Shown piece by piece: positions 130-62,056 of a stretch of DNA of 64,000 bases (positions within the stretch are counted from its first letter, which is position 1; every line of letters begins with the position of its first letter). This DNA is from an uncultured Pseudomonadota bacterium (GTDB lineage Bacteria > Pseudomonadota > Zetaproteobacteria > Mariprofundales > Mariprofundaceae), in the NCBI GenBank assembly GCA_913055645.1, contig CAJXLC010000008.1, positions 1-64,000 on the forward strand, written 5' to 3'. Made by a program: the position numbers and the translations under genes. Below the pieces are notes generated by a model that ran no database searches, was not told the origin of the DNA, and saw only the letters and a list, made by a program, of their open reading frames with translations.

Positions 130-361
130 GCGCAAATGTAACTATTCAGCTCACCACTGATTTACACAAGTTATGCGTTGAAAAATGCTCACGTACAAGA
201 AGTACGCTGCGCTTTTTCGCCTTGATCTTGGACAAATCGGCGGCAATCTGAACAGTTACTTCACAATGCTGAATAGCGACACATGCCGCGTTGTGAAAAC
301 CGAACGAGTGAATAACAAATGATAAAATGCATCATTTGTTATTCAAGAGTCACGCGCAAAT
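130..361. mobile_element. Composite MITE-like element with 8-bp target duplication
   Basis: The element occupies 138-353 and is flanked by the direct repeat GCGCAAAT (130-137 and 354-361). Its first part (138-259) is the roughly 120-bp palindromic unit found at 44136, 46261 and 61927, with ends GTAACTATTCAG and CTGAACAGTTAC. The second part (about 268-353) is a different unit containing a perfect 15-bp stem, TGAATAACAAATGAT (311-325) with its complement (333-347). The 8-bp repeats lie outside both units, so the pair appears to have inserted as one. This accounts for most of the gene-free 1-401 stretch; no transposase is present. Confidence 0.75.
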
Positions 362-425
362 TATAAATAGATTTGGCGTGTTTTGATGCGTTAAAGGATA
401 AATGTTGGATGCTTGGAGAGATGGC

Positions 426-2804
426 ATGATTAAGCAAATTGCACAGGAATTAAATGTGGCGGTAAAACAAGTCGCAGCAGCAGTTGAACTGCTCGATGGT
501 GGCGCAACGGTACCGTTTATTGCGCGCTATCGTAAAGAAGTCACTGGTGGTTTGGATGATGGGCAATTGCGCCAACTTGAAGAGCGCTTACGCTATTTGC
601 GTGAGCTTGAAGCACGCCGCGAAAGCATCTTAAAAAGTATTGCAAAACAAGATCTGTTAACACCTGAATTGGAAAAAAAGATTCGTGCTGCCGACACCAT
701 GACACGTTTGGAAGATTTGTATTTGCCATATAAACCACGCCGTCGAAGCAAAGCACAGCAAGCGCGTGAAGCTGGTTTGGAGCCATTGCTGGATAGTTTA
801 TTGCAGGATATGAATCTATCCCCTGAAACTGTGGCGGCGGATTTTTTGAATAGTGATGCTGGCATTGATGATGTTGAAGCCGCACTTGCTGGCGCACAGC
901 ATATTTTGATGGAACGCTTGGGTGAGAATGCCGAAGTTTTGGTAATATTACGTGATTATATGCAAAAACACGCTGTGTTAACTGCATCAGTGGTGAAAAA
1001 GAAAGCCGAAGAAGGCGAAAAGTTTAAAGATTATTTTGAGTTTTCTGAAAGCTGGAAAAAAGTGCCTTCACATCGAGCATTGGCAATTTTCCGCGGTCAA
1101 AAAGAAGGCGTGTTGCGCGTGAAACTATTGGCTGGAGCTGATGAAGCGCGTGCTGATAATTTTTGCCAAGGCGCAATGGCAAAACCTTTGGATATTCGTG
1201 ATGCGGGACGTGCTGCGGATGCATGGCTTTTGGAAAGTGTGCGCCTGGCGTGGAAGAGCAAGGTGTTGATGCGTTTGGAAGTGGATTTGTTGTTGGCATT
1301 GCGCTGCAAAGCTGAAGATGAAGCGATTAAAGTGTTTGCCAATAATTTGCGTGATTTATTGTTGGCTGCTCCTGCTGGGCAACGCGCAACGATGGGCTTG
1401 GATCCGGGTTTGCGCACGGGTGTGAAAGTCGCAGTTACTGATGTGACAGGCAAAGTGCTTGATACAGCAACGATTTATCCACATGTGCCTGCTCGCCGTT
1501 GGGATGAAGCATTGGCTGCTTTGGCGGTCTTGGCAGATAAACATAAGGTGGATTTGGTGGCGATTGGTAATGGCACAGGCTCGCGTGAAACGGCAAGCTT
1601 GATTAAGGCATTGAGCGAGCAGTTTCCACAGTTGCATTTAACACCTGTGATGGTCTCGGAGGCAGGTGCATCGGTGTATTCAGCATCGGAAATTGCCGCC
1701 AATGAATTTCCAGATTTGGATGTGACTTTGCGTGGTGCGGTATCCATTGCACGGCGTTTGCAAGACCCGTTGGCAGAGCTGGTGAAGATTGAGCCTAAGG
1801 CTATTGGTGTAGGTCAATATCAGCATGATGTGAATCAAACATCGTTGGCACGTACGCTGGATGCAGTGGTGGAAGATTGTGTGAATCAGGTGGGTGTGGA
1901 TGTGAATACAGCATCGGCGCATTTGTTGGCGTATGTGGCTGGTTTAAGCCGTAGTATGGCGGAAAATTTGGTGGCTTATCGCGATGAGCATGGGCGTTTT
2001 CCGAATCGTGATGAAATTCATAAGGTCAAAGGCATTGGTCCGAAAGCCTTTGAGCAGGCGGCTGGTTTTTTGCGTATTTTGGATGGTGAGAATCCATTGG
2101 ATGCATCGGCGGTACATCCCGAAGCTTATCCTGTGGTTGCACATATCGCAGAAAAGAAGAAAACGACGATTAAGGAACTGCTTGGTAATCAAACGATTTT
2201 GCATGGTCTAAAAGCCAAAGATTTTATCAATGATGAATTTGGTGAGTTGACGGTATCGGATATATTTTTGGAATTGGAAAAGCCAGGTCGTGATCCGCGC
2301 CCCGAATTTAAAACAGCGACTTTCCGTAGTGGTGTGAATGAAATTCGTGATTTGAAAGAGGGTATGATTCTTGAAGGTGTGGTGAGTAATGTCGCTAACT
2401 TTGGGGCATTTGTGGATGTTGGCGTGCATCAGGATGGGCTTGTACATATTTCCGCATTGGCGAATACTTTTGTTGATGATCCGCGTAAGGTGGTGAAGAC
2501 AGGTGATGTGGTGAAGGTGAAAGTTTTGGAGGCTGATGCCAAACGCAAACGTATTTCCCTGACCATGCGCCTAGAAGATGCGGTTGAACCTTTGCAGGAA
2601 GAAAAGCCGCGGTGGAAAAAAAGCGAGTCAGGACATGCTTTGCAACGTGAGCCTGAAAGCGTGCAGCAAAAGGTGAAACGCCAAATGCATAAACAACAAC
2701 AGCAAGCACAAAAGAAACAGCGTAAAGGGCAGAAAAACAATCATAAGAAACCTGAAACCATGAGTGCTTTGGAAATGGCCTTTGCCAAGGCGCTGAACAA
2801 ATGA
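426..2804 (+). CDS. tex: Tex family RNA-binding transcription accessory protein
   Basis: This is a cytoplasmic nucleic-acid-binding protein of the Tex/YhgF family, implicated in transcription. The N-terminus carries the family block [18 protein letters not shown] YqgF/RNase H-like domain begins near residue 320 (LDPGLRTG), helix-hairpin-helix repeats lie near 490-560, an S1 domain lies near 640-710 ([17 protein letters not shown]), and the tail is Lys/Gln-rich. The reading frame opens at 402, but GGAGAG at 415-420 is well placed for ATG 426, whereas the sequence before 402 leaves only 3 nt of spacing. The stop overlaps the next gene by ATGA, indicating translational coupling. Confidence 0.95.
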
Positions 2805-3721
2805 ATGAGCTAGAAGCAGCTCAAAATGAGGCCGTTGAACTACTCAAGTCATCGGATGAATATCGTGTGATTCAACGTCTGCATGCACCTAATTGTTATC
2901 AACAGGGCGAGCCATTAACCAAGCGTATCGGCTTGGTGATTGATACGGAAACCACAGGTATTGATACAGCCAAGGACAAAATTATCGAGCTTGGTTTTGT
3001 GGCATTTGAGTATGATGCAGGGTCGGGCAATATTTATCGTATTTTACATACCTATGATGGTTTTGAAGACCCCAAAGAGTCGCTTTCTGATGTGGTGAAG
3101 AAGTTGACAGGCATTGATGATAGGATGCTTAAAGATCAATGCTTGGATGATGCTGAGATTAATAGCTGGTTGGAAAAATCCAGTCTGATTATTGCTCACA
3201 ACGCAGCGTTTGATCGCGCTATGTTGGAGCGTCGATTGCCGACCGTAAAAGATACAGCATGGGCATGTACATTTGCAGATATTGATTGGCAGACTGAAGA
3301 TATTGGTAGCCGCAAGTTGGATTATATTGCTTATCAGTTGGGTTACTTTTTTGATGGGCATCGCGCCGTGAATGATGCACAGGCAACCTTGCATTTGTTG
3401 ACCTATGCACTGCCTGTGACAAAAAAGCTGGCGATGGGCGAATTGTTGGCTTCGGCACGCGAAAAAAGCCAGCGTTTGTTTGCCATTGGAGCACCATTTG
3501 ATAAAAAAGATGCACTCAAAGAGCGTGGTTATCGCTGGTTGGCCGGTTTTCATCAGCCGAATGGAAAAAAAGGGGTGTGGAGCATTTGCATTGCTGATTC
3601 TGATGCTGCAGCAGAGCAACAATGGTTGTCTGAACATATATATACAGGCAAAAAAGCGACCTATCAATGTAAAAAATTAACGGCACGAGAGCGTTATTCC
3701 ATACGCGAATTTGAGTTGTAA
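2801..3721 (+). CDS. DnaQ-like DEDDh 3'-5' exonuclease
   Basis: This is an RNase T/DnaQ superfamily exonuclease. Exo I is DTETTG (about residues 48-53), Exo II is the [11 protein letters not shown] segment, and Exo III is [10 protein letters not shown], so all acidic residues and the His of the DEDDh class are present. A C-terminal segment of about 70 residues ([17 protein letters not shown] onward) is additional to the nuclease fold and I cannot name it. The gene overlaps tex by ATGA, so the two are probably co-translated. The family acts on single-stranded DNA or RNA ends; the substrate here is unknown. Confidence 0.85.
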
Positions 3722-3807
3722 CCACCAAAAAAATATAGCTAAATCTTTTCATTAGAGGCTTATTTATTTAAGCTGCGCCACCTATTCATGGTTTTTAAGG
3801 AGTTTTA

Positions 3808-4977
3808 ATGAGCCGTAATTTTGTATTTACATCTGAATCTGTGGGTGAAGGTCATCCAGATAAAGTCGCTGACCGTATTTCTGATGGTATCTTGGATGCT
3901 ATTTTAGAGCAGGATAAATATGCCCGTGTGGCATGTGAAACCATGGTGAATACAGGCATGATTGTACTCTCTGGCGAAATCACAACATCGGCAATCATTG
4001 ATTATCAACAAGTGGCGCGTGAAGCGGTGAAAGAGATTGGTTATAACTCATCGGACATGGGTTTTGATTATGCTTCTTGTGCAGTTTTGGTGACCATGGA
4101 TAAGCAATCTGTGGATATTGCGCAGGGTGTGAATGAAGGCGAAGGCATTGATTTGGATCAAGGTGCAGGCGACCAAGGCTTGATGTTTGGTTATGCCTCC
4201 AATGAGACAGATGTATTGATGCCAACACCGATTCATTTATCGCATCAATTGGTGGCAAAACAAGCCGATGTTCGTAAAAGCGGCGTGGTGAATTTCTTGC
4301 GCCCCGATGTGAAATCGCAAGTGACAGTGCGTTATGAAAATTTCAAACCTGTTGCTATTGATGCGGTGGTTTTATCCACACAACATGGTCCTGATGTTTC
4401 ACATAAAGAGCTTTCTGAATCTGTGATGGATACGATTATTAACCCAGTGCTAGGTGATACAGGCTTGTTGCATGCAGGCACTGAATATCACATTAATCCG
4501 ACAGGACGTTTTGTGATTGGCGGTCCTGTGGGCGATTGTGGTGTAACGGGTCGTAAAATTATTGTGGATACCTATGGTGGTTTTGGTCATCACGGTGGCG
4601 GCGCATTTTCTGGTAAAGATCCAACCAAGGTGGATCGCTCTGCATGTTATATGATGCGTTATGTGGCTAAAAATATTGTAGCGGCAGGTCTTGCCGATCG
4701 CTGTGAAGTGCAAGTGGCTTATGCCATTGGCGTTGCACACCCATTGAGTGTGATGGTGAATACATTCGGCACAGGCAAAATGGAGGAAGGTAAGTTGGCA
4801 GATATTGTGCGCGAAGTATTTGATTTGCGTCCAAAAGGCATTGTACAAGAGCTTGATTTATTGCGCCCAATTTACGCGAAGACGGCTGCTTATGGTCACT
4901 TTGGTCGTGAATTGCCTGAATTTACATGGGAACGCACTGACAAAGCGGATGCATTGAAGGCTGCTGCGGGAATTTAG
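3808..4977 (+). CDS. metK: S-adenosylmethionine synthetase
   Basis: The enzyme makes S-adenosylmethionine from methionine and ATP. The protein is full length at 389 residues. Diagnostic motifs are GEGHPDK near the N-terminus, [12 protein letters not shown] in the middle, and the glycine-rich loop [27 protein letters not shown] precedes the ATG at good spacing. It sits just upstream of a SAH riboswitch and ahcY, forming a methyl-cycle cluster. No SAM riboswitch is visible in the 86-nt leader. Confidence 0.97.
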
Positions 4978-4987
4978 AAAACTTATA

Positions 4988-5057
4988 GACTGAGGAGCAC
5001 TGCGACGGTTTGAAGATCAAATCGCTAGGCTCAGTCGCAAAATGTTTAACTGTGCTC
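4988..5057 (+). promoter_or_regulatory. S-adenosylhomocysteine (SAH) riboswitch
   Basis: GACTGAG (4988-4994) pairs perfectly with CTCAGTC (5030-5036) as P1. An inner hairpin CGGTTTGA/TCAAATCG (5006-5024) follows. GAGCAC (4995-5000) can pair with GTGCTC (5052-5057) as a pseudoknot. The conserved blocks GAGGAGC.CTGCGAC and AGGCTC match the SAH riboswitch class known upstream of ahcY genes. Known members switch the gene on when SAH accumulates. The location 5' of ahcY makes the assignment strong. Confidence 0.85.
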
Positions 5058-5098
5058 ATATTTTTTATACCTGAAAAGGTACATATAGGAGTATGAGA

Positions 5099-6394
5099 AT
5101 GTCTGAATTTACAGATTATAAAGTTGCCGATATGTCATTGGCAGAATGGGGTCGTAAAGAAGTTACGATTGCTGAAACGGAAATGCCTGGTTTGATGGCA
5201 TTGCGTGAAGAATATGCGGGTAAGAAGCCATTGGCTGGTGCGCGTATCGTGGGCTGTTTGCACATGACTATTCAAACAGCGGTATTGATGGAAACCTTGG
5301 TTGATTTGGGTGCAGAAGTGCGTTGGTCTTCTTGCAATATCTTTTCTACACAGGATCAAGCTGCAGCAGCCATGGTTGCTGCTGGTATTCCAACCTTTGC
5401 TTGGAAAGGTGAAACAGAGGAAGAGTTTTGGTGGTGCATCGAACAAACTATTCATGGCCCAGATGGCTGGACTCCCAACTTAATTTTGGATGATGGTGGC
5501 GATGCAACACAAATAATTCATGATAAATATCCTGAATTATTGGCAGACATTAAAGGTCTATCTGAAGAAACAACCACAGGTGTGCATCGTTTGTATGAAA
5601 TGGCACGCGACGGCAAATTGAAAGTTCCAGCTATTAACGTAAATGATTCAGTGACCAAATCTAAATTCGATAACCTTTATGGTTGTCGTGAGTCTTTGTT
5701 GGATGGCATCAAGCGTGCAACAGATGTGATGATTGCGGGTAAAATTGCAGTTGTTTTGGGTTATGGCGATGTGGGTAAAGGCTGTGCGCAAGCATTTAAA
5801 GGTATGGGGGCAACGGTTTGGGTGACTGAAATTGATCCAATCTGTGCTTTGCAAGCTGCGATGGAAGGTTATCGCGTTGTGAATATGGATGATGCCTGTA
5901 AAGAAGGTAATATCTTTGTAACCACGACGGGTAACTATCATGTGATTCAACATGACCATTTGGTGAATATGAAAGACCAATCCATTGTTTGTAATATTGG
6001 GCATTTCGATAATGAAATTGATGTGGCATCACTTAAGCAATACACATGGGAAAATGTTAAACCACAAGTGGATCAAATCATTTTTCCAAATGGTAATCGC
6101 ATTACATTGTTGGCAGAAGGTCGCTTGGTGAACTTGGGTTGTGCAACAGGGCACCCAAGCTTTGTGATGTCAGCTTCATTTACCAACCAGGTCATGGCGC
6201 AAATCGAGCTTTGGGAAAATGCTTCAAACTACAAGAATGAAGTCTATGTGTTGCCGAAACGCTTGGATGAAAAAGTGGCGCGTTTACACCTTGCAAAAAT
6301 TGGCGTGAATTTAACTGCTTTGAGCCAGCAACAAGCTGACTACATTAATGTGCCTGTTGAAGGACCATATAAAGTTGAGCATTATCGTTATTAA
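5099..6394 (+). CDS. ahcY: Adenosylhomocysteinase
   Basis: It hydrolyses S-adenosylhomocysteine to adenosine and homocysteine, relieving product inhibition of methyltransferases. Visible features are the substrate domain ([28 protein letters not shown]), the NAD-binding loop [16 protein letters not shown] and the C-terminal KVEHYRY. AGGAG at 5087-5091 lies 7 nt before ATG 5099 but only 1 nt before the upstream in-frame ATG 5093, so 5099 is preferred (431 residues). Control by the riboswitch just upstream is expected. Confidence 0.97.
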
Positions 6395-6395
6395 G

Positions 6396-6686
6396 ATGTT
6401 CAAACGTCTATGTTTGGCAGGAGCGGCAGCAGCAATGCTACCGCTCTTCTCTTTTGCATCCGATCAAGCTGCAGGTGATGCTGTAATGACTGTGGATGTG
6501 CGTTTTGATAAAACAGGTGATGGTATTGTTGACGCATCCGATTGGAGTAAGATGACAGCGGATGAGCAGCAGTTATATGCGCGCGAGTCTGTAAAATCTT
6601 TGGGTGAAGATCCTGATGTGTTGTTATTGCAAGGCAAGAGCCGTGCGCAGCAATATTTGGAAGGGTTGCGTTCCGTTTACGAATAA
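6396..6686 (+). CDS. Small secreted protein with one EF-hand-like loop
   Basis: This 96-residue protein starts 1 nt after the ahcY stop. Residues 1-21 form a signal peptide (basic N-terminus, Ala/Leu core, FSFASD cleavage region). Residues 38-49 (DKTGDGIVDASD) fit a 12-residue EF-hand/dockerin-type calcium loop, with Asp at positions 1, 5, 9 and 12. I recognise no family beyond this. The function is unknown; an exported calcium-responsive or structural protein is possible. The reading frame extends upstream into ahcY, but the signal peptide identifies this start. Confidence 0.7.
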   Translation: MFKRLCLAGAAAAMLPLFSFASDQAAGDAVMTVDVRFDKTGDGIVDASDWSKMTADEQQLYARESVKSLGEDPDVLLLQGKSRAQQYLEGLRSVYE

Positions 6687-6745
6687 GCTGTTATTTCTAA
6701 TCTTGAATATTTCAAGCTGGCGGTTCTTTACTGTGCCATTTATTT

Positions 6746-7384
6746 CTAAATAATTTTTTCAGGCCATTGGCAACAATCGTTGATTGGACAACTATGGCAC
6801 TTTGGCTTGCGGGCAATGCAGGTATACCGCCCATGTAATATTAACCAATGATGGGCATGCATCATGAATTCCTGAGGAATGACTTTAAGCAACTTTTTTT
6901 CAACATCCAAGGGTGTTTTCCCAGGTGCTAATCCTGTGCGGTTGCCGACACGAAAAATATGGGTATCTACGGCTATGGTGGGCTGATTAAAAAGTATATT
7001 TAGTACGACATTAGCAGTTTTTCGTCCGACGCCAGGTAGGGCTTCGAGTTCTTTGCGTGTACTGGGAACTTGTCCATTGTGTAGCTCCATAAGCATGTTG
7101 CAGGTTTTTATCAAATGTTTGGCTTTACTATGATATAAACCAATCGTGGAGATATATGTTTTTAATGCATCCTCCCCTAAATCTAGTATGGCTTGGGGGT
7201 TATTGGCGATAGGATAGAGCTTGGCAGTGGCTTTATTGACACCAACATCGGTGGATTGAGCCGATAGCATGACTGCTGCGAGTAACTCAAACGGAGTTGT
7301 ATAATTGAGTTCAGTTTTTGGTTCGGGATCAAGGCTGCGCAAGTGTTCAAACAGGCGTTGAACCTGCTCTTGAGACATTGCCAT
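6746..7384 (-). CDS. nth: Endonuclease III
   Basis: This is a base-excision repair DNA glycosylase/AP lyase for oxidised pyrimidines. The helix-hairpin-helix LPGVGRKTANVVLN carries the catalytic Lys, VDTHIFRV carries the catalytic Asp, and the C-terminus has the [4Fe-4S] cluster pattern C-x6-C-x2-C-x5-C (CIARKPKCHSCPINDCC). The length of 212 is normal. It lies 5 nt downstream of pilP on the same strand and is probably co-transcribed with it. Confidence 0.96.
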   Translation of the reverse strand: MAMSQEQVQRLFEHLRSLDPEPKTELNYTTPFELLAAVMLSAQSTDVGVNKATAKLYPIANNPQAILDLGEDALKTYISTIGLYHSKAKHLIKTCNMLMELHNGQVPSTRKELEALPGVGRKTANVVLNILFNQPTIAVDTHIFRVGNRTGLAPGKTPLDVEKKLLKVIPQEFMMHAHHWLILHGRYTCIARKPKCHSCPINDCCQWPEKII

Positions 7385-7389
7385 AGGGC

Positions 7390-7899: not shown

Positions 7900-8058
7900 T
7901 TAAAGCCTCCATATGTTAGCATGCACACTAAAAGCGATACATGAAGAAGCTTAGTAGAACTGCTTGATATTGCAAGGTTTGCAGGTTGACAGATGTTCTT
8001 TATGATTCGAGTTTATAGTCGTTGCTATGCGTTATGGAAGCCTAGTTTAGGAGTGTTT

Positions 8059-9087: not shown

Positions 9088-9125
9088 TTGAACTTTAAAT
9101 AAGCAATTATAATAAGGACTTAGGG

Positions 9126-29304: not shown

Positions 29305-29478
29305 CGATTCAAATCGCGTTACAAATACTCAAAAGGGCGTTGCAAATACCCAATGATTGAGTAACAAAATGATAGCAACCGCTATTTTGTTACTCAAGAG
29401 CGACACATGCCGCGTTCCGAAAACCCAACGCATGAATAACAAGAAGGATAAAATTCATCATTTTGTTATTCAAGAGTA
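29298..29478. repeat. Two tandem hairpin repeats of the B unit type
   Basis: The first unit contains TTGAGTAACAAAAT (29358 on) mirrored by TTTTGTTACTCAA (29383-29395). The second contains TGAATAACAA mirrored by TTGTTATTCA (29465-29474). Both share GCGAC..C.....CGCGTT with the composite element at 138-353 and with 46788-46876. The left edge includes the Crp/Fnr stop codon. No flanking target duplication was found. Confidence 0.65.
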
Positions 29479-44127: not shown

Positions 44128-44266
44128 GATTTACGGTAACTATTCAGTTTACCGCTGATTGACCCAAGCTCTGCGTTGAAAAAATGCTCACGTACAGGAA
44201 GTAAGCTGTGCTTTTTCGTCTTGATTTTGAGTCAATCAGCGGCAATTTGAACAGTTACGATTTACG
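44128..44266. mobile_element. MITE-like element with 8-bp target duplication
   Basis: The 123-bp unit at 44136-44258 has ends GTAACTATTCAG and CTGAACAGTTAC and is a long imperfect palindrome. Exact direct repeats GATTTACG lie at 44128-44135 and 44259-44266. It separates the aminotransferase from folD. Confidence 0.85.
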
Positions 44267-45172: not shown

Positions 45173-46260
45173 GTAAGTTAATGAAAACGCCCCTGTTTAA
45201 TGCGCATGTCGCACTGGGCGGGAAAATCGTGCCTTTTGCAGGCTATGAATTACCTGTGCAGTATAAACATGGTGCTTTGAAAGAATACACAGCAGTGCGT
45301 GAGGGTGCAGCAGGTATCTTTGACATCACGCATATGGGGCAAGTCCGTGTGGAAGGTGTGGGCGCATTGGATTTCTTACAATATGTGACTACCAATGATG
45401 TATCCAAGCTGGTTGATGGGCAGGTGCAATATTCTGCGTTGTTGAATGAGCAGGGTACATTTATTGATGATATAACGACTTACAGAATCAGTGATCAAGC
45501 CTATTATCTCTGCATTAATGCTGCCAATCGCCATAAAGATGTAGCGCACTTGCAAAAAGAAGCTGCAAACTTTGATGTTACCGTAACCGATGAGTCCGAT
45601 GACACTACATTGTTGGCATTGCAAGGTGCAAAAGCACAAGCTGCATTGCAAACAATTACAGATATGGATTTGGAAAGTATTGGCTATTACAAGTTTGCCA
45701 GAGGAAAAATAGGCAAGGCTGGCGGGATTATTTCACGCACAGGTTATACAGGCGAAGATGGTTTTGAGATTTATATGCCTAATGCGATTGCAGTCAGTGT
45801 ATGGGATGCGTTGTTAGAGCAGGGTGCTGTACCGATTGGTTTGGCGGCGCGTGATATGTTGCGTACTGAAATGGGTTATGCGCTTTATGGGCATGAAATT
45901 TCCGATGCAGTGACACCTGTTGAAGCCAAGTTGATGTGGATTACCAAGCTTGATAAAGGTAATTTTATTGGGCAGGCAGCAGTTGAAGCGCGCAAAGCTG
46001 AGGGAGCTAAAAAACGTTTGATTGCATTGAAACTTATCGAACGAGGCATTCCCCGCGAACACTATAAAGTGTTTGTGAATGGTATTGAAAGTGGTGAAGT
46101 GACATCAGGTATGCATTCGCCTATGGCGGGCGGTGTGGCACTGGCGTATGTGATGCCTGAGCATGCAATTGAAGGTGATGTGAGCATTGAAATTCGTGGC
46201 AAACAAGTAGCCGCCGAGCGTACATCTTTGCCATTTGTAAGAAGTAACGTTAAAAAGTAA
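45169..46260 (+). CDS. gcvT: Glycine cleavage T protein (aminomethyltransferase)
   Basis: It transfers the glycine methylene carbon to tetrahydrofolate. Motifs include [30 protein letters not shown] and [13 protein letters not shown]. It starts with TTG 45169 behind GGGAGG, overlapping the folD stop. The stop codon lies inside an 8-bp target duplication of a MITE, so the insertion hit the very end of the gene without altering it visibly. Confidence 0.96.
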
Positions 46261-46389
46261 GTAACTATTAAGCTTACCACTGATTCGCCCACGCTCAGCG
46301 TTGAAAAATGCTCATGTACAGGAGTACGCTGCGCTTTTTCGTCTTGATCTTGGGTAAATCAGCGGCAATCTAAACAGTTACAAAAGTAA
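46253..46389. mobile_element. MITE-like element with 8-bp target duplication
   Basis: The unit at 46261-46381 starts GTAACTATTAAG and ends CTAAACAGTTAC. Exact repeats AAAAGTAA lie at 46253-46260 and 46382-46389. It sits between gcvT and gcvH. Confidence 0.85.
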
Positions 46390-46409: not shown

Positions 46410-46784
46410 ATGAGTATTCCTGCGGATTTAAAATATACCAAAGAACATGAATGGGTGCGCATCGAAGGCGATGTAGCGACCTTTGGTGTGTCTGATCATG
46501 CGCAAGAAGCTTTGGGCGATATTGTGTTTGTAGAATTGCCTGAAATCGGACGCACTGTGGATGCGGCGGAAGCTTATGCCGTGGTTGAATCTGTAAAAGC
46601 AGTCTCTGATGTGTATGCACCTGTGGCAGGTGAAATTATTGAAGTGAATGAAGCACTTGAAAGTGAGCCCGAAAAGGTGAATACCGAGCCTTACGGCGCA
46701 GGTTGGATTGCCAAGGTGAAGATGTCAGGCAATGCGGACGAATTGATGTCTGATGATGAATATGCCACATTTTTAGAAGAATAA
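46410..46784 (+). CDS. gcvH: Glycine cleavage H protein
   Basis: This 124-residue lipoyl carrier of the glycine cleavage system has the lipoylated Lys in VVESVKAVSDVYAP (near residue 64). GGGAGGGG precedes the ATG. It is separated from gcvT and gcvPA by repeat insertions. Confidence 0.96.
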   Translation: MSIPADLKYTKEHEWVRIEGDVATFGVSDHAQEALGDIVFVELPEIGRTVDAAEAYAVVESVKAVSDVYAPVAGEIIEVNEALESEPEKVNTEPYGAGWIAKVKMSGNADELMSDDEYATFLEE

Positions 46785-46884
46785 ATAAGAGGCAATCTGA
46801 ACAGTTGTGAGCTATGTAAATGCGCATACTGAATAGCGACTCAAGTCGCGTTGCAAATACCTAGCGATTGAGTAACAATAAATA
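46780..46884. mobile_element. Variant repeat with 8-bp direct repeats
   Basis: The unit at 46788-46876 joins the last bases of unit A (GGCAATCTGAACAGTT) to part of unit B (CTGAATAGCGACTC...CGCGTTGCAAATACC) and ends GAGTAAC. AATAAATA flanks it at 46780-46787 and 46877-46884. The left end lacks the usual GTAAC terminus, so it may be an internally deleted copy, and the AT-rich flanks could match by chance. Confidence 0.55.
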
Positions 46885-49901: not shown

Positions 49902-50885
49902 AGTGTATTTAGTAAACTGTCACCGTAATTGGATTCGTAAGGGGCGAGCCATGTAGTTACTCTAAGCAACACAATTCAACTTTCAAGACCTGACCCCGAT
50001 GCTCACTATCGATTATGTCCGAACGAGCGCCTTGTTAGGCGATTTACTCATTTTTTAGCCTTGTCGTTTCGTTTCTCTATAGCTTCACGCTTATTTTCAG
50101 GTAGTTTGCCATATAACTCCTCGACTTTTTTAGGGTGACTTATCATCTGGTCTACAATTGAATTAATTAATAACAGAAGTTGACTGGCTGTATCTCTATC
50201 ATCGTTTAAATCAATGATACCAGGATGTACTGCCTCATTACCTATGACTCGGACTATATCTAATGATTTTTGAACAAGTGGGTTTAATCCTTTAGAAACA
50301 AGACTTGCAATGTCGTCATCAATGTTTTTACCTTTTTCGCCTAAATGCATACATAGCTTTTGAACACATAATCGAAGAAGCGCAGCCGCCCCTCTTGGTG
50401 ATTCGCTAAGTATTCCACGCGCTTCCTCATAATCGCGAGTAATATGATCTGGTAAGTCAGGGTTCGGATGAGCACCTAGCTTTTCATTTGGAAATATAAG
50501 GTTATCATGCAACCACACTGCAACTTTGTTGCAGTTGTAACACCTGCTTAGATTTAGGTTATGGACGTTGTTGTAAAAGTATTGACCATTGTTTTTTTCT
50601 AAAAATACAAGGCCACGGTCCATTTTCTCGCACCATTCAAGAAATTCTTGTTTGTTATTATCAGGGATATTCGTGTCACTAGATATATGGTTTCGTATTT
50701 CTTCATTGGGGATAACAGGCGTAGCATTTTTATCTCGAGGATTAGCGAACACCTCAAACCAGTACTGAGTTGTATATGCCCCACAATGTGGGCAATCAAA
50801 CGCGGTTTCAGATATTGATGGAGGTGTCGGTTCTTTTGGCATTGCTGTTTCCTATGAATTACGGTGACAGTTTACTGAATACACT
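49902..50885. mobile_element. 984-bp cassette bounded by 29-bp inverted repeats
   Basis: The 29 bases at 49902-49930 (beginning AGTGTATTTAGTAAACTG) are repeated in inverted orientation at 50857-50885 with one mismatch. Between them is a single gene on the minus strand. No transposase and no target duplication is visible. The stretch 49783-50047 otherwise holds only an open 41-codon frame (49831-49956) running through the left repeat, and a short hairpin CGCCT-TGTT-AGGCG near 50031-50044. Confidence 0.6.
50048..50842 (-). CDS. DUF4145-like zinc-finger protein
   Basis: This 264-residue cytoplasmic protein has an N-terminal zinc-knuckle pair (FDCPHCGAY near residue 15 and CYNCNKV near 100) and a C-terminal helical domain with SPRGAAALLRLCVQKLCMHLGE and RVIGNEAVHPG, the hallmark of DUF4145. 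Such domains occur in restriction, defence and other accessory genes, but the function is unknown. It is alone in an inverted-repeat cassette between gcvPB and nrdJb, suggesting recent acquisition. Confidence 0.7.
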   Translation of the reverse strand: MPKEPTPPSISETAFDCPHCGAYTTQYWFEVFANPRDKNATPVIPNEEIRNHISSDTNIPDNNKQEFLEWCEKMDRGLVFLEKNNGQYFYNNVHNLNLSRCYNCNKVAVWLHDNLIFPNEKLGAHPNPDLPDHITRDYEEARGILSESPRGAAALLRLCVQKLCMHLGEKGKNIDDDIASLVSKGLNPLVQKSLDIVRVIGNEAVHPGIIDLNDDRDTASQLLLLINSIVDQMISHPKKVEELYGKLPENKREAIEKRNDKAKK

Positions 50886-54093: not shown

Positions 54094-54191
54094 CAATCTT
54101 GCACAATTCATCCACTATTTATACATGTTTTACACACAGCTTATGCACAGGAACAGTGTGGTTTTTCAGGGAAGCGGCAATGAACGCCATG

Positions 54192-54270
54192 TGTCATCTT
54201 GAGCGAAGTCGAAAGATCGTTGTCTTCAAGATATTGTGAAATGGTCCCCTCCACTTCGGTCGAGATGACA
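54192..54270. repeat. REP-like inverted repeat
   Basis: TGTCATCTTGAGCGAAGTCG (54192-54211) is mirrored imperfectly by CCACTTCGGTCGAGATGACA (54251-54270). The arm resembles a dispersed repeat seen in many bacterial genomes. The rest of the gap between nrdJa and ubiE holds the NrdR boxes and no gene that I can support. Confidence 0.6.
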
Positions 54271-54336
54271 TCTTTAATCTGCCTAAGTCCGACGGATTTC
54301 TAGAACTTAGTTCAGGCTGCTGTTAGCTTGCTTGCC

Positions 54337-55107
54337 ATGAATCAGCAAACAAATCAGCAAACGCATTTTGGTTATGAAACCGTCTCAGTAAACGAGAAAG
54401 CTGGCAAGGTGATGGGTGTTTTTTCATCGGTTGCGAGCAAGTATGATATTATGAATGATGCCATGAGTGGAGGCATGCACCGATTATGGAAGTGTCGCAT
54501 GCTTTCGATGTCAGCGGTGCGCTCTGATAGCGTGGCCTTGGATGTTGCTGCTGGTTCTGGAGATATTGCCATTGGGCTGCTCAAAAAAATGCGTAAAGGT
54601 GGTGAACATCAAGGACGTGTCGTATTGACCGATTTGAACGGTCCGATGTTGGCAGAAGGTGCACGTCGTGTGGTAGATGAAGGTTATTTGCCAGGGGCTG
54701 CTGATTGTATTCAATCCGATGGCACCAAGCTCCCGTTTGCTGATAATAGTTTTGATTCTGTGACCATTGCTTTTGGTATTCGTAATTTTGTTGATATTGA
54801 TGCGGGCTTGGCAGAATTTTATCGTGTTTTAAAATCAGGCGGGCAATTTATGTGCCTTGAATTTTCCAAGCCTGTATTGCCATTATTGGATGTGGTGTAT
54901 GATGCGTATTCGTTTAATGTGATTCCTGCTATGGGCGAGCTGATTACAGGTGATCGGGACTCTTATCAGTATCTTGTTGAATCGATTCGCCGCTTTCCTG
55001 ATCAACAACGCTTTGAACGTATGATTAGCCAAGCTGGTTTTGATTTGGTGCGCCATGAAAATATGACAGGTGGCGTGGTTGCATTGCATCGAGGTTATAA
55101 AGTATGA
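54337..55107 (+). CDS. ubiE: Ubiquinone/menaquinone C-methyltransferase UbiE
   Basis: This SAM-dependent methyltransferase of quinone synthesis has 256 residues. FSSVASKYDIMNDAMSGGMHRLWK, the SAM site LDVAAGSGDIA and IAFGIRNFVD are diagnostic. ATG 54337 is preferred over an in-frame TTG at 54328. It overlaps ubiJ by ATGA. Confidence 0.96.
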   Translation: MNQQTNQQTHFGYETVSVNEKAGKVMGVFSSVASKYDIMNDAMSGGMHRLWKCRMLSMSAVRSDSVALDVAAGSGDIAIGLLKKMRKGGEHQGRVVLTDLNGPMLAEGARRVVDEGYLPGAADCIQSDGTKLPFADNSFDSVTIAFGIRNFVDIDAGLAEFYRVLKSGGQFMCLEFSKPVLPLLDVVYDAYSFNVIPAMGELITGDRDSYQYLVESIRRFPDQQRFERMISQAGFDLVRHENMTGGVVALHRGYKV

Positions 55108-55760
55108 GTGTGATGTTTCTACCACTGCGTTTGATTCCATTACCTGTGCAATGTGTGGTGATGTCATCCGTGTTGGACTTGGCATTTTCGCGTGATGCGA
55201 ATTTGAATGAGCATTTGGATGGCCTGAACGGCAAGGTTTTCCGTATTCATGTGACAGATACCAATGCGGTGATGTTTTTAGGCTTTAAGTCAGGGCGGGC
55301 ATGGGTACATGCTGATTGTTCAGATGAGGTGGATGTTCGCATTGAAGCGACCACGGCAGGTTTTGCACGTATGTGCTTTGCCAAAGAAGATCCTGATGAT
55401 TTGGTGTTTCAACAGGTATTGAAATTATCAGGTGATTCAGAATCCATGTTGCGTTTCAAAAAATTGCTTGCTGCTGCTGATTTGGATTGGGAACGCGAGT
55501 TGCGTGCTATATTTGGTGATTTCTTTGGTATACGGGTTGCCAAAGCGGCACATGCATTGGTGGCTGCTGAAGCCAAACTTTCATCGGCTTCCAAAGCGGT
55601 TGTGCAGGATTGTCTAACGGATATGCAAACACCCAATGCTGACCGTTTACAGGCATGGCAAGCTGGTGTTGAGCAGTTATCACATCAAGTGAGCAAACTT
55701 AAAGGCAAGACCACACGCTTGGAACATCGAGTCGATGCTTTATCGCCGCAAGATAAATGA
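55104..55760 (+). CDS. ubiJ: Ubiquinone biosynthesis accessory factor UbiJ (SCP2 domain)
   Basis: The 218-residue protein has an N-terminal SCP2 lipid-binding domain (about 30-125) and a C-terminal coiled coil (VEQLSHQVSKLKGKTTRLEHRVDAL). UbiJ scaffolds the soluble Ubi complex and binds quinone intermediates. ATGA overlaps with both ubiE and ubiB support the assignment more than sequence identity does. Confidence 0.88.
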   Translation: MSVMFLPLRLIPLPVQCVVMSSVLDLAFSRDANLNEHLDGLNGKVFRIHVTDTNAVMFLGFKSGRAWVHADCSDEVDVRIEATTAGFARMCFAKEDPDDLVFQQVLKLSGDSESMLRFKKLLAAADLDWERELRAIFGDFFGIRVAKAAHALVAAEAKLSSASKAVVQDCLTDMQTPNADRLQAWQAGVEQLSHQVSKLKGKTTRLEHRVDALSPQDK

Positions 55761-57370
55761 GACTGCCCAGTAAAATTCGTCGTAATCTGCGCTTGTTGCG
55801 TATTGGTTATATCTTAACAAGCCATGGCATGGCAGCGATTGCAGTACGTTTACGTTTATTAAGCCCCTACGCTTGGTTGGTACAATTATTTCGCGAAGAT
55901 GCATTGCCGCATGATTTGGGAGCACAGATTCGAGAGGCGCTTGAAAAGCTTGGCCCAACCTTTATCAAATTTGGGCAAATGCTTTCCACGCGTGTTGATT
56001 TGTTGCCTTTGGAAGTCGCACTCGAATTAAAAAAACTGCAAGATGATGTGCCGCCAGCCCCCTTTGAACATGTCAAAGAGGTGATTGAGCGAACATTTAA
56101 AAAGCCCTTAACGGGTGAAGGTGGTTTGTTTGCATCCTTTGATGAACAAGCCATTGCGGCAGCATCCATTGCACAGGTTCATTTTGCAGAGTTGCATGAT
56201 GGTCGTCAGGTGGCGGTAAAGGTTAGGCGCCCGCATATTCACAAAACCATTGAAGCAGATTTAGCGATTTTACGTTTACTAGCAGCGATGTTTGATCGCT
56301 ATTTTCCTGAATATCGCCGTTTAAAAGCACCGTGTGTGGTCGAAGAATTTGCTACCAGTATTCGTGGGGAATTGAATTTGCGAGCAGAAGCTGCGCATGC
56401 GAGTCGCTTTGCCGAAAACTTCAAATCCCTTGATGGTGTCCGAGTTCCCGAAGTGTTGTGGGATTATACCCAAACAGAAGTGCTAACCAGCGAGCGTATT
56501 TCAGGTATTCCTATTGATGAGCATGATACATTGCGTGCGGCAGGGCATGACACATTAAATCTATGCGAGCGTGCCACCACATTATTTTTCCACATGGTAT
56601 TTGAGGATGGCTATTTCCATGCTGATATGCATCCGGGCAATATTTTTGTGGCTGCCAATGGTGATATTGTGCTATTGGATTTTGGTATTGTTGGACGTTT
56701 GGACGTGCGCCCACGCCGCTATTTAGCGGATATGTTGTTGGCTTTTTTGCATGGCGATTACCGTAAAGCGGCGATGGTGCATATTGAAGCAGGGTATGTG
56801 CCGCGCGACACCAATATTTCAGCCTTTGAAGATGCTTTGCGTGAAGTTGCTGTACCTATTTTTAATCGCCCATTGGGTGAAATATCGATTGCAGAACTAT
56901 TGCTGTGCATGTTTGCAGTGACAGAGCGCTTTCAAATGGAAACCCAGCCAGAGTTGCTATTGTTGCAAAAGACTATGGTGGTTATTGAAGGTGTTGCACG
57001 CGAATTGGCGGACGACATCAATATTTGGGAGCTTGCGAAACCGCTCGTGTCCAAATGGATGATGCAGCATATGGGACCAAAAGCACAACTCGAATTTATG
57101 GCAAATGATGTTAAAGATCAGTTGCATGACTGGATGGTATTGCCATCACGTATGGAGTCTGTATTCGAACACATTGAAAACACCAGTCAGACTATGAGAG
57201 ATCAAAAGCCGTCGTATATCTTGCTTGTGATGGGCGCGTTATTCAGCGCATTTGGTGGTGCCGCATTGGCTGCTTATGCGATGGACATACCTGAGGCGGC
57301 TCAATGGGGCGGGTTTGTTGGCGTTGGTTTTTTATTGGCAGGCATTGTGATGATTGTACGGGCAAGATAA
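55757..57370 (+). CDS. ubiB: UbiB family ATPase/kinase-like protein
   Basis: The 537 residues have the ABC1/ADCK signature: KFGQMLSTR (KxGQ motif), AAASIAQVHFAEL in place of a glycine-rich loop, VAVKVRRP, HADMHPGN and LLDFGIVG. Two C-terminal membrane helices (about 485-535) anchor it. It is required for ubiquinone synthesis and completes the ubiEJB operon. Confidence 0.96.
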   Translation: MRLPSKIRRNLRLLRIGYILTSHGMAAIAVRLRLLSPYAWLVQLFREDALPHDLGAQIREALEKLGPTFIKFGQMLSTRVDLLPLEVALELKKLQDDVPPAPFEHVKEVIERTFKKPLTGEGGLFASFDEQAIAAASIAQVHFAELHDGRQVAVKVRRPHIHKTIEADLAILRLLAAMFDRYFPEYRRLKAPCVVEEFATSIRGELNLRAEAAHASRFAENFKSLDGVRVPEVLWDYTQTEVLTSERISGIPIDEHDTLRAAGHDTLNLCERATTLFFHMVFEDGYFHADMHPGNIFVAANGDIVLLDFGIVGRLDVRPRRYLADMLLAFLHGDYRKAAMVHIEAGYVPRDTNISAFEDALREVAVPIFNRPLGEISIAELLLCMFAVTERFQMETQPELLLLQKTMVVIEGVARELADDINIWELAKPLVSKWMMQHMGPKAQLEFMANDVKDQLHDWMVLPSRMESVFEHIENTSQTMRDQKPSYILLVMGALFSAFGGAALAAYAMDIPEAAQWGGFVGVGFLLAGIVMIVRAR

Positions 57371-57473
57371 ATCCGAATTTATGAGCAGCAGTCTGTCTGC
57401 CTGTGATAAAGATACCGCTAACTTATAGTTAAGTTATATTTAAAGAAAAACTTAAAATAGCCGATATAAACAT

Positions 57474-57884
57474 ATGCCTTTCGTTAAACAACTACCGCTT
57501 GGAATGACTCTTCTATCACTGCTTATTTTTTGGGTATTCCCATCTGATATACAGGCAGAATCCATGAATGAATGGACAATTAATATGCAGGATGAGGCAG
57601 ATGGTTATGCACGGTGGTTAGATCACCCACCAAAGAATAGGTATCATTATGAGGAAGCTTTAGTTATGCGGAAGTTCATTTATACTTGTACCATGTTAAA
57701 GGCGTATTCCTCAAATGATTGGTGCGGGTCATCGTCACTCACTATGAGGTGGCTTGGATATGCTGGAAAACATGGCTTTGACCCAGAAATAAGAGGTTAT
57801 AAACAAACAACCGTTGGTAATTTTCGCTTTCCCAAAAAGATTCTCAAAGAAATTAGTAAATCACTCAGTAAAAAGAAACGTTAG
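57474..57884 (+). CDS. Unknown secreted protein, 136 residues
   Basis: I do not recognise a family. An N-terminal signal peptide ends near DIQAES. The mature part is small and charged with two cysteines (TCTMLKAYSSNDWCGSSS) that could form a disulfide, and a basic tail ([10 protein letters not shown]). Its stop region overlaps the convergent ilvH end by 4 nt. Confidence 0.6.
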   Translation: MPFVKQLPLGMTLLSLLIFWVFPSDIQAESMNEWTINMQDEADGYARWLDHPPKNRYHYEEALVMRKFIYTCTMLKAYSSNDWCGSSSLTMRWLGYAGKHGFDPEIRGYKQTTVGNFRFPKKILKEISKSLSKKKR

Positions 57885-58366
57885 CTGATTGTAAAACCTT
57901 TGGCACCACGGCGCATGCCAACAGGACCAGTGCGCGTGATTTCGATAATGCCAAATTCACTAATTTTACCGAGAAAGTCATTCAATTTATCGGCAGAACC
58001 CGTTAATTCAATGATACGGTATTCATCCGAATCAGCATCAACCAGTTTCGCACGAAACTCCTCAATCAATGCATCCACTCCTGAAGATGCATGCGTTTTT
58101 ACAAGTAACATTTCACGCTCAAGATGTACCATATGTGAAATATCTTCTGTTTTGATGACAGGGATCAATTTATTAAGTTGTTTCTTAATTTGCTCAATAA
58201 TATTTTCATCACCACGGGTTACCAAGGTCATGCGGCTCATTGTTTCATCCAATGTTGGAGCCACGCTTAAGCTTTCAATATTATAGCCACGTGCGGAAAA
58301 TAGCCCCGCAACACGTGTTAATACGCCAAATTCATTCTCAACCAGTACGGTGATTGTATGTTTCAT
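57881..58366 (-). CDS. ilvH: Acetolactate synthase small (regulatory) subunit
   Basis: This 161-residue protein has an N-terminal ACT domain ([30 protein letters not shown]) that binds branched-chain amino acids for feedback inhibition, and a C-terminal half ([15 protein letters not shown]). It overlaps the large-subunit gene by ATGA. Confidence 0.96.
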
Positions 58367-60066
58367 GATAACACCATCTCATTCAATGCCGCACCAGCTG
58401 GCACCATTGGAAATACGTTTTCTTCTCTTGCCACTGCAATATCAACAAATACGAAACGATCTTTTACAGCAAAAGCTTGCTCAAGCCCTGCATCAAGTTC
58501 TGCAACCGTATCAATACGAATACCCACGCCGCCATAGGCTTCTGCAAGTTTTACAAAATCAGGCAATGAATCAAAATAGGAGTGTGAGAAGCGTGATTCG
58601 TGGAACATTTCCTGCCATTGGCGAACCATGCCCATGTAAGCATTGTTGAGCAGAATCACAACAATCGGTTGTTGATATTGAAACACTGTTGCCAATTCTT
58701 GAATGCACATTTGAATCGAGGCATCGCCTGTAAACACCACAACTTGCTCATCAGGTTTTGCCATTTGCGCACCAATCGCAGCGGGTAAACCGTAACCCAT
58801 GGTTCCTAAGCCTCCAGATGTTAGCCATTGATGGGGTCTTTTTAAGCCGTAATGTTGTGCTGCCCACATTTGATGCTGTCCAACATCGGTAGTCACAATG
58901 GCATCGCCATTGGTGATGTCATGCACCTTACGAATCACTGCTTGTGGTTTGATGGCTTCATCTTCTTTTTGCTCAAAACCCAAACAATCTTTTGCACGCC
59001 ACGCATCAATTTGCTGCCACCATAATTTTAAGGCTTCGCTATCGGATGATTTATTCTGATGTGCCAATTCATCCAATAATTGCTGTAATACAATGCCAAC
59101 ATCACCAACAATGGGTAAATCAGCATGGACATTTTTGGATATAGATGTTGGGTCGACATCAATATGAATAATTTTTGCATCAGGTGCGAAAGCATCCAGA
59201 CGACCGGTTACCCTATCATCAAAACGCGCGCCAACAGAAATTAATAAATCACAATGTGAAACTGCCATGTTGGCTTCGTATGTGCCGTGCATACCAAGCA
59301 TGCCGACAAAATGTCTGTCATCAAAAGGGATGCCACCCAAACCCATCAAGGTATTGGTGACAGGCATATTTAATTGCTGACTTAACTCTAGTAACAATGC
59401 AGCAGAACCTTGGGCATTCATCACGCCACCACCTGAATATAACATCGGGCGCTTGGCTGTGACCATGGCTTTGATGGCTTTTTTGATTTGTCCAGGGTGC
59501 CCTGCTGTTTTGGGCTGATAAGAGCGCATATCCACACGCTCTGGCCATTCAAATTCACAGACCGCAAAACCAATATCTTTGGGAATATCGACCACCACAG
59601 AACCTGGGCGACCTGTTGTGGCAATATGAAATGCTTGGCGGATAATTAATGCCAAATCTTCGACATGTTTTACCAAGAAATTATGTTTTGTTGCCGAGCG
59701 TGTGATGCCGACAATATCGGCTTCTTGAAAGGCATCGCTGCCAATCAATGCGGACGGAACTTGCCCTGTAAAACATACATTAGGGATAGAATCAGCATTG
59801 GAGTCTGCCAAGCCTGTAATAGCGTTGGTTGCACCTGGTCCGGAAGTTACCAAAGAAACACCACAACGACCTGAAACTCGAGCATAACCATTGGCAGCAT
59901 GAAGTGCTGCTTGCTCATGGCGTACTAGGATATGTTTAAAATGATTTTGTTTAAAAATCGCATCATAAATGGGCAGCACGGCTCCGCCAGGATAACCAAA
60001 AATAGTCTCCACGCCCTCTCGTCTTAGGCATTCCACAAAGATTTCAGCACCAGTCAGTTTCATCAT
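58363..60066 (-). CDS. ilvB: Acetolactate synthase large subunit
   Basis: This thiamine-diphosphate enzyme makes acetolactate or acetohydroxybutyrate for Val/Leu/Ile. Visible motifs are [14 protein letters not shown], the catalytic Glu in [15 protein letters not shown], and the ThDP-binding [14 protein letters not shown]...[12 protein letters not shown]. Length 567. AAGG precedes the ATG pair. ilvC is not in the window. Confidence 0.96.
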
Positions 60067-60072
60067 TCTGCC

Positions 60073-60261
60073 TTATAAATATGAATGGATTTGGCGTTTG
60101 TTTGCCCGTAAAAAAAGGTAATCAGACAGCCAGAAAAGGTATGCGAGCATAGGATTTGTACGGAATAAGTCAAGAATATCAACAAAATATAAATGACCCT
60201 TTGCAGGATAGTTGGCAATGGCTAGCTTAGCTGCAAAATAGATATTGAAGTCTTCCTGCAT
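60073..60261 (-). CDS. Possible 62-residue ORF ahead of ilvB
   Basis: The frame ends 6 nt before ilvB on the same strand and encodes a hydrophobic, Leu/Tyr/Phe-rich peptide ([20 protein letters not shown] near its end). No family or clear ribosome-binding site is visible. It could be a leader of the ilv operon or a chance frame in the dapD-ilvB promoter region. Confidence 0.3.
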
Positions 60262-60323
60262 TAGGCGTTGAATGGTGTTGTGGCTTGGATGCAGACTTCA
60301 TGGACATCCAGAAAGAGGTTTAT

Positions 60324-61145
60324 ATGAATCATTTACAAGAAGTTATCGAACAAGCTTGGGATACCCGTAGCGATTGGGATATGCACAATGTTGAGCCGGA
60401 AATGCGTGAAGCAGTCATCCGCGCCATTGACCTATTGGATAACGGCGGTATTCGGGTCGCTGAAAAAGGTGAAGATGGTGTTTGGAAGACCAATGAGTGG
60501 CTAAAGAAAGCCGTGTTATTGTTCTTTAAACTGCACGATAACGAAGTGATTCATGGCGGCGATACGGTTTATTATGATAAAGTGCCACAGAAGTTTGCCA
60601 ATTGGGGTGAAGATATGTTCCGCAAAGGTGGCATGCGTGTTGTTCCCCCTGCAACTGTTCGTAAAGGCTCTTATATTGCGCCGAAAGTGGTATTGATGCC
60701 GTCCTATGTGAATATTGGTGCATATGTGGATGAAGGAACCATGGTGGATACATGGTCAACGGTGGGTTCATGTGCGCAAATTGGTAAGAATGTACATTTA
60801 TCAGGCGGTGTAGGCATTGGCGGTGTGTTGGAGCCATTGCAAGCCACACCAACCATTATTGAAGATAATTGTTTTATCGGCGCACGCTCTGAAATCGTTG
60901 AAGGTGTGATTGTGCGCGAGGGATCAGTGATTTCTATGGGTGTATATATTGGTAAATCAACCCGCATTATTGACCGTGCAACAGGCAAAGTATCTTATGG
61001 TGAAATTCCACCCTATTCGGTGGTTGTTTCAGGCTCTATGCCAGGCGCGTCAGGTGGTCCGAACTTGTATTGTGCAGTGATTGTAAAAACAGTGGACGAA
61101 AAAACACGTTCTAAAACAGGCATTACTGAGCTTCTTCGCGAGTAA
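60324..61145 (+). CDS. dapD: Tetrahydrodipicolinate N-succinyltransferase
   Basis: It catalyses a step of lysine/diaminopimelate synthesis. The left-handed beta-helix with hexapeptide repeats and [36 protein letters not shown] are characteristic. ATG 60324 behind AGAGG gives 273 residues, close to the normal length; the frame opens further upstream at 60285. Confidence 0.96.
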
Positions 61146-61180
61146 GCATTGCTTAAAAAGTTAGTGGAGGGGGGCTTATT

Positions 61181-61202
61181 CTTTCTTGCTTTCCCAAGAA
61201 AG
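61181..61202. terminator. Hairpin after dapD
   Basis: CTTTCTTG (61181-61188) and CAAGAAAG (61195-61202) form an 8-bp stem with a six-base loop, 36 nt after dapD, followed by an A-rich stretch. It may terminate dapD or the convergent rdgB transcript. Confidence 0.5.
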
Positions 61203-61249
61203 GAACAAAAAAGGGAGCCCTGATTATCTGCTTATTTCCTTCACTTACA

Positions 61250-61293
61250 GCAAACAAAAGGGCGCGTATTACTGCGCTCTCCCTTTTGCTTGC
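61250..61293. terminator. Long stem-loop between convergent dapD and rdgB
   Basis: GCAAACAAAAGGGCGCG (61250-61266) pairs with GCGC and CCCTTTTGCTTGC (61274-61293). The position between converging genes suggests a bidirectional terminator. Confidence 0.6.
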
Positions 61294-61342
61294 TGAGGTT
61301 ACGGCACAGCTAGGACAGGGGGGGCTTGTGGCTCTTTAGAGA

Positions 61343-61927
61343 TTATTTAGAAAGCTTTTCTGCCAATATTCGTAATGCCCGCCCACGATGAGAGACGGAG
61401 GCTTTTTCTTCAGGTGTTGAAGATGCAAATGCCTTGTCCAGTTCAGGGCAAAAAAATAATGGATCATAACCAAAACCAGAATCTCCCACTGGTTTTTTCA
61501 GTATTTCTCCATCAACTTGAGCTTCACAGCTTAGATCTGTCGAGCTATCAGGGTATGCCAAGTGCAAAGCACAGATGAAATGGGCGCTGTGATTGTCTTT
61601 ACCGTTCAAGAGCTCCAGCAATTTGGCATTATTCTCGCTATCTGTAGCAGTCTCTCCTGCGAAACGTGCCGAATAAATGCCTGGCGCACCGTTTAAAACA
61701 TCGACACATAAACCTGAATCATCGGCGAGTGCAGGCAGGTCATTCGCCTTAGCAAAGGCTTCGGCCTTTTTGCGAGCATTGCCCGCAAAGCAATCGGCAT
61801 CTTCTTCGACATGCACAAAAGCAGTGGCATTGGCAGGGACAATTTCAATGCCTAAATCACCAAGGATTTCTGCAATTTCTTGGCGTTTTTTAGCATTATT
61901 GCTGGCAATGATAAGCTTGTTCAACAT
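61343..61927 (-). CDS. rdgB: dITP/XTP pyrophosphatase (RdgB/HAM1)
   Basis: It removes non-canonical purine triphosphates. The motifs are IIASNNAKKRQEI at the N-terminus, ALADDSGLCVDVLNGAPGIYSARFAG, and GFGYDPLFFCPE. The 194-residue length is normal. The start codon abuts a MITE insertion: its 8-bp target duplication spans the first codons, and there is no ribosome-binding site immediately upstream. Confidence 0.95.
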   Translation of the reverse strand: MLNKLIIASNNAKKRQEIAEILGDLGIEIVPANATAFVHVEEDADCFAGNARKKAEAFAKANDLPALADDSGLCVDVLNGAPGIYSARFAGETATDSENNAKLLELLNGKDNHSAHFICALHLAYPDSSTDLSCEAQVDGEILKKPVGDSGFGYDPLFFCPELDKAFASSTPEEKASVSHRGRALRILAEKLSK

Positions 61928-62056
61928 GAACTATTCAGCTCACCACTAATTTGCCCAAATTCTGCGTTGAAAAATGCTCACGTACAGAAAGTAAGCTGCG
62001 CTTTTTCGCCTTGATGTTGAATAAATCAGTGGCAATCTGAATAGTTACGTTCAACA
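61919..62056. mobile_element. MITE-like element inserted at the rdgB start codon
   Basis: The unit at 61927-62048 has ends TGAACTATTCAG and CTGAATAGTTAC. GTTCAACA is duplicated at 61919-61926 and 62049-62056, and the following T extends the match to nine. On the minus strand both copies read ATGTTGAAC, the start of rdgB. The outer copy keeps the probable original ribosome-binding site (GGGAAG). Confidence 0.85.

Follow-up and report, generated by a model that had tools for sequence, protein, structure and literature searches.

The 64,000-nucleotide stretch of DNA analysed here (the window; contig C8 of G000, a genome of 1.88 Mb in 56 contigs) carries four copies of a short element at sites that are empty in a second genome of the same genus (G007). 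They are MITEs, and the enzymes that mobilise them in trans are very probably IS66-family transposases of the single-ORF ISBst12 group. As expected of MITEs, the units are 52-347 bp long and contain no gene, they are bounded by terminal inverted repeats (GTAACTATTCAG/CTGAAYAGTTAC), and they show both target-site duplications (TSDs) and empty sites.

Window copies and their empty sites

The four imperfect palindromes of about 120 bp that the initial annotation placed at 138, 44136, 46261 and 61927 are all present; they are near-palindromes of 121-123 bp, belong to one family and are 84-88% identical in pairwise comparison (Table 1). The GTAAC ends which they were said to share are found with one exception, the left end of copy 4, which reads TGAAC. 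Exact 8-bp flanking repeats directly adjoin copies 2-4 as described, whereas at copy 1 the repeat GCGCAAAT encloses a 216-bp composite and not the 122-bp unit, its second occurrence lying 94 bp past the end of the latter. BLAST of G000 with the MITE unit returned 38 matches, and the 12-bp end was found 101 times with at most one mismatch, as against 12 times for the reversed pattern. All four window copies fold into a hairpin of nearly full length (z, -3.5 to -6.0 for the plus and -5.5 to -10.5 for the minus strand). One strand of the hairpin has G-U rather than A-C mismatches, and there are 12 pairs in which both sides are changed. An Rfam scan revealed no known RNA family at the MITE repeats, its sole match being a SAH riboswitch.

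Table 1. Positions of the elements, their duplications and associated segments in the window.
Feature	Positions	Strand	Basis
Left TSD GCGCAAAT of composite	130..137		sequence read; once in G007 empty site
Non-autonomous composite of 216 bp, comprising MITE unit, outer-end segment, repeat B and a final TCAC	138..353	+	TSD scan; entire 216 bp absent in G007
122-bp MITE unit within composite, GTAACTATTCAG...CTGAACAGTTAC	138..259	+	read from sequence, genome matches
Outer right-end segment TTCACAATGCTGAATAG, 17 bp, counterpart of TTTACCATGCTGAATAG(TTAC) in 143-bp form	260..276	+	comparison with L006 and L028 copies
Repeat B (second hairpin repeat family), interrupting outer end CTGAATAG^TTAC	277..349	+	sequence comparison
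Right TSD GCGCAAAT	354..361		TSD scan
Left TSD GATTTACG	44128..44135		exact, adjoins copy 2; once in G007 and G002
123-bp MITE (copy 2) between aminotransferase gene and folD	44136..44258	+	sequence read
Right TSD GATTTACG	44259..44266		exact, adjoins copy 2
Left TSD AAAAGTAA, includes gcvT stop TAA at 46258-46260	46253..46260		exact, adjoins copy 3
121-bp MITE (copy 3) immediately 3' of gcvT, upstream of gcvH	46261..46381	+	G007 site empty
Right TSD AAAAGTAA	46382..46389		exact, adjoins copy 3
Decayed remnant: MITE right end GGCAATCTGAACAGTT, then repeat B	46783..46878	+	similarity matches
TSD GTTCAACA, minus strand TGTTGAAC = beginning of rdgB	61919..61926		exact, adjoins copy 4
122-bp MITE (copy 4) within rdgB start codon, A|TG	61927..62048	+	sequence and G007 comparison
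TSD GTTCAACA	62049..62056		exact, adjoins copy 4

The element is absent from G007 at all four window sites, and each 8-mer is present there once (GAAAGCGCAAATATAAG, GTTGATTTACGAAAAG, GTTAAAAAGTAAAAGAA and, with one mismatch at site 4, TTGTTTAACATTTAATG), in DNA that is approximately 85-94% identical to that of G000. Queries made of the joined flanks of 19 further sites gave a contiguous match across the join at most of the sites that matched. A single 8-mer, exact or nearly so, was found in G007 at L007, L013, L022, L023, L028, L099 and L104; L002, L003, L009, L017 and L021 are empty with no clean 8-mer, and L026 is occupied in G007, which makes that insertion an older one. Since the window sites, and some seven others, are empty with a single 8-mer, we regard the copies as insertions and not as REP sequences, in agreement with the transposition first proposed for them. 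That they are instead static REP/BIME-like or regulatory hairpin repeats, flanked by ancestral or fortuitous 8-mers, is hardly credible: strong hairpins, intergenic locations, the lack of TSDs at some MITE copies and the preservation of some pairs through changes on both sides would suit such repeats, but the empty sites refute them as a full account, and an excess of TSDs over shuffled flanks (below) and ends in common with IS66 also speak against them.

A comparison of two genomes alone gives no direction, and the sites might have been occupied ancestrally, with G007 having lost its elements by precise excision. Precise excision from many sites is rare for bacterial elements. Site 2 is also empty in G002, site 4 is unoccupied in both G001 and G002, and at site 3 the element is missing from several other species; because these other species of the genus are likewise without elements at sites 2, 3 and 4, the direction is one of gain in G000, and we consider loss from G007 very improbable.

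Among 26 aligned G000 copies the mean identity is 83% (89% between nearest neighbours), and at most loci the copies resemble one another less than the host DNA resembles that of G007. The transposition had been called recent, and this holds in so far as the four insertions followed the split from G007; the low mean identity argues against a single master copy having given rise to them all in one recent burst. Exact TSDs and empty G007 sites are nonetheless numerous among these diverged copies, and it would appear that more than one source copy was active, the sources having diverged beforehand.

Two of the insertions touch genes directly. At site 3 the gcvT stop codon is contained in the TSD, with the element following at once. 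At site 4, where the insertion separates A from TG in the rdgB start, the MITE end has been altered from GTTAC to GTTCA (minus strand), which re-creates an ATG at 61927-61925 and presumably keeps rdgB translated. The G-U mismatches and the doubly changed pairs of the hairpin no more than hint at selection for its preservation at the RNA level, and MITE copies occur in both orientations relative to the neighbouring genes.

Target-site duplications and alternative right ends

A scan for inward-facing end pairs across all fetched G000 copies revealed 12 elements with exact 8-bp TSDs and a further four whose flanks match at 7/8 positions. In the chance test, which took the 47 pairs of G000 ends that face inward at a spacing of 40-400 bp, and 2000 shuffles of their flanks, the flanks matched exactly over 8 bp in 10/47 pairs and with at most one mismatch in 14/47; the shuffle means were 0.23 and 0.39, with a maximum of 3.

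The G000 units bounded by TSDs are 52, 121-123, 143-145, 172, 216 and 347 bp long. Units of 122 bp with TSDs at the inner end thus coexist with units of 143-145 bp, whose TSDs adjoin an outer end 21 bp farther on, and with those of 216 and 347 bp, which have them at a composite end. On contigs of gammaproteobacterial relatives the TSD adjoins an outer end, some 30 bp past the inner one; a provisional statement that these relatives are without TSDs was dropped, as those found are located at this more distant end. That this family has more than one right end, each of them found with duplications, is a new observation.

The right end comprises at least two candidate end sites, an inner one (CTGAACAGTTAC) and an outer one (CTGAATAGTTAC), the second of which is pushed outward by repeat B in some copies. 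Several such sites could yield units of about 122, 143-145, 216 and 347 bp, each with its own duplication, and it may be the transposase that chooses between them. We put forward only tentatively the broader proposal that tandem end sites let the transposase pick the right boundary, such that a MITE lineage can change size and pick up adjacent DNA, repeat B for example, and that gene-less elements across phyla live off ISBst12-type IS66 transposases by way of one nearly invariant end, GTAACTRTTCAG.

As to the composite itself, we lean slightly towards a two-step origin, in which a 143-bp MITE inserted first and repeat B entered its outer end later, over movement as one unit. Repeat B interrupts two composites at the identical point, CTGAATAG^TTAC, and is also found solitary elsewhere, after similar bases and without TSDs. 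The different TSDs of the two composites (GCGCAAAT and AATTAAAC) are equally expected from transposition of the unit, and the empty site is compatible with one step as with two.

The candidate transposase

The transposase would recognise GTAACTRTTCAG at both ends and carry out the insertion at a cut staggered by 8 bp, the repair of which would leave the 8-bp duplication. An enzyme of this kind has been described: ISDge4, of the IS66/ISBst12 group, has terminal inverted repeats GTGACTACTCAGCA/GTAACTGCTCAGCA and an 8-bp direct repeat, and its transposition was observed in vivo (PMC12898284). The group is defined by a single ORF, and that 2026 study is, according to its authors, the first report of transposition within it (PMC12898284). 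Other IS66 elements also have 8-bp direct repeats (PMC3281130) and GTAA ends (PMC12888890).

A PF03050 profile search covered 16 related genomes. G043 possesses a complete element of 1642 bp with a single 470-residue ORF (L125), no tnpA/tnpB, and a perfect GTAACTATTCAG at both ends; the ORF product is assigned to IS66 by PF03050 (E 8e-49) and NF033517 (E 3e-90). No TSD was seen at this element. Beyond the 12 bp there is subterminal agreement between its 5' end (GTAACTATTCAGCATAATAAAG) and the outer end of the MITE (GTAACTATTCAGCATGGTAAAG). In G007 an IS66 transposase gene of 231 codons, cut by the contig end, has its stop inside a GTAACTATTCAG end, within GTAACTATTCAGCGCCCATC, and IS66 fragments in G103, G023, G015 and G011 terminate in GTAACTATTCAG or GTAACTACTCAG. 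Among plasmid-borne IS66 elements of the single-ORF (ISBst12) type, that of Oceanisphaera has perfect ends, while those of Ca. Chlorohelix and Deinococcus wulumuqiensis have ends with one mismatch and exact 8-bp TSDs.

An IS66-type transposase had been suggested as the driver, located elsewhere in the same genome. The family was well chosen, IS66 genes of relatives lying directly inside GTAACTATTCAG ends; the location was not borne out, for searches of the 56-contig G000 draft with Pfam and two related proteins identified no IS66 transposase that is intact or even plausible, and the sole IS66-like trace is a doubtful remnant of 34 codons (44% identity). An IS66 copy could be missing from an assembly of this many contigs. 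An ISBst12-type IS66 enzyme is most likely what moves the MITEs; it would do so in trans, its gene having probably been lost from, or missed in, G000.

The lack of a complete IS66 in G000 would also be expected if the MITEs were moved by another family that duplicates 8 bp, e.g., IS1595, ISL3 or IS256. We consider this improbable, as all transposases found inside perfect GTAACTATTCAG ends, in a search directed at IS66, belong to IS66. No similarity was found between the MITE interiors and IS66 beyond the ends; since the interiors share nothing found, descent from IS66 by internal deletion is unsupported, and the ends were perhaps acquired otherwise.

Distribution and relation to known elements

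The order is represented by 78 species in three families, and the MITE family of the window extends to bacterial families of this order other than its own. In G063, a relative with a 2.0-Mb genome, 236 intact-ended copies were counted (control, 0). Searching GTDB contigs for the pattern GTAACTRTTCAG-N85-113-CTGAAYAGTTAC revealed at least 115 stretches, from Gammaproteobacteria, deltaproteobacterial MAGs, Chloroflexi, Lachnospiraceae, Bacteroidota, KSB1 and others. The matches listed are GTAACTRTTCAG-ended elements 109-137 bp in length, spread over many phyla, and the flanks agree exactly over 8 bp in 35/116 and with at most one mismatch in 54/116 (shuffles, 0.35 and 0.8). The longest exact flank match in the listed set peaks sharply at 8, and 15 further elements among the listed matches have TSDs at the outer end. 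The interiors of GTAACTRTTCAG-ended elements differ between groups.

In the open literature searched we found no IS66-driven MITE, no paper linking IS66 to MITEs as driver, and no occurrence of the string GTAACTATTCAG. The present elements constitute a gene-less family with ISBst12-type ends that inserted repeatedly in one lineage, as its empty sites attest, and whose relatives number up to 236 copies in a single genome. With the 12-bp end as a probe, elements of this type can easily be sought in bacteria of any group, and nested right ends open to direct test whether an IS66 transposase chooses between ends.

REP/BIME, ERIC and Correia repeats are likewise short, palindromic, intergenic and present in many copies. 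Their sequences and ends differ from those of the MITEs, which have 8-bp TSDs and empty sites; REP/BIME sequences are marked by neither TSDs nor discrete insertion, and at the tested sites the MITEs show both. The ISDge4/ISBst12 group resembles the MITEs in its GTAACTGCTCAGCA-like ends, the end consensus being the same, and in its 8-bp direct repeat; it differs in being autonomous, with a single transposase ORF, while the MITEs are gene-less. Classic IS66 elements (ISPsko1, ISPa75, ISPpa5/7) share GTAA termini and 8-bp direct repeats with the MITEs (PMC12888890, PMC3281130), but they have several ORFs and their ends continue GTAAGCG or GTAACCG, in contrast to GTAACTATTCAG. MITEPsy1, the mobilisation of which was demonstrated (PMC3189936) and which likely derives from ISPsy2 with a 4-bp duplication, and MITECca01, with IS982-type ends (PMC9769881), are as short and gene-less as the present elements, although their ends match resident IS of other families. 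The elements described here are of a known kind, the bacterial IS-derived MITE, and the family itself is new.

Repeat family B and a third repeat

About 20 copies of repeat family B were counted, composed of a CGACACATGTCGCG hairpin and a ATGAATAACAAAATGAT..ATCATTTTGTTATTCAAGAG hairpin. Stop codons frequently precede the copies, and tandem copies are joined with TTATTCAAGAG running directly into CGACACATG. Copies come after TGAATAG/TCAAGAG and lack a target-site duplication (TSD); the family is perhaps an IS200/IS605-type palindrome element. A third repeat, GTCATCTCGACCGAAGCGGAGAG...TTTCGACTTCGCTCAAGATGAC, is found within MITEs or adjoining them.

Features of the window and of the compared loci
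Feature	Location	Positions	Remarks
Repeat B	window	273-349, 29337-29477, 46826-46878
Third repeat	L023 (MITE site)	1500-1846	also loci L012, L018
SAH riboswitch (RF01057)	window	4986-5064	between ORFs 3808-4977 and 5093-6394
Inverted-repeat unit	window	49902-50885
DUF4145 ORF	window	50048-50842	- strand
rdgB start/MITE end	window	61917-61935
Shared contig-start end	window; locus L029	1-57; 1-51
241-bp element	L130 (G009 locus)	1135-1375

Other features of the window

The rdgB start codon is interrupted by a MITE, and a two-base change in the MITE end forms an ATG anew; selection may have favored this repair. Near-perfect 29-bp inverted repeats (AGTGTATTTAGTAAACTGTCACCGTAATT) enclose the DUF4145 gene as sole ORF, with no transposase within the unit and no obvious TSD around it; this may be a gene-carrying cassette. 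Two contig starts have in common the end CCTAGTTATCTGGGACAGCCCC, probably that of an IS5-like element at which assembly breaks.

Elements in other genomes

The 2.0-Mb genome G063, of the same order, carries 236 MITE copies with intact ends (each ~114-122 bp), predominantly GTAACTACTCAG/GTAACTGCTCAG. In genome G009, the 241-bp element, bounded by GTAACTATTCAG and flanked by a near-TSD (TATTTCTC/TATTTTTC), adjoins an IS66 remnant.
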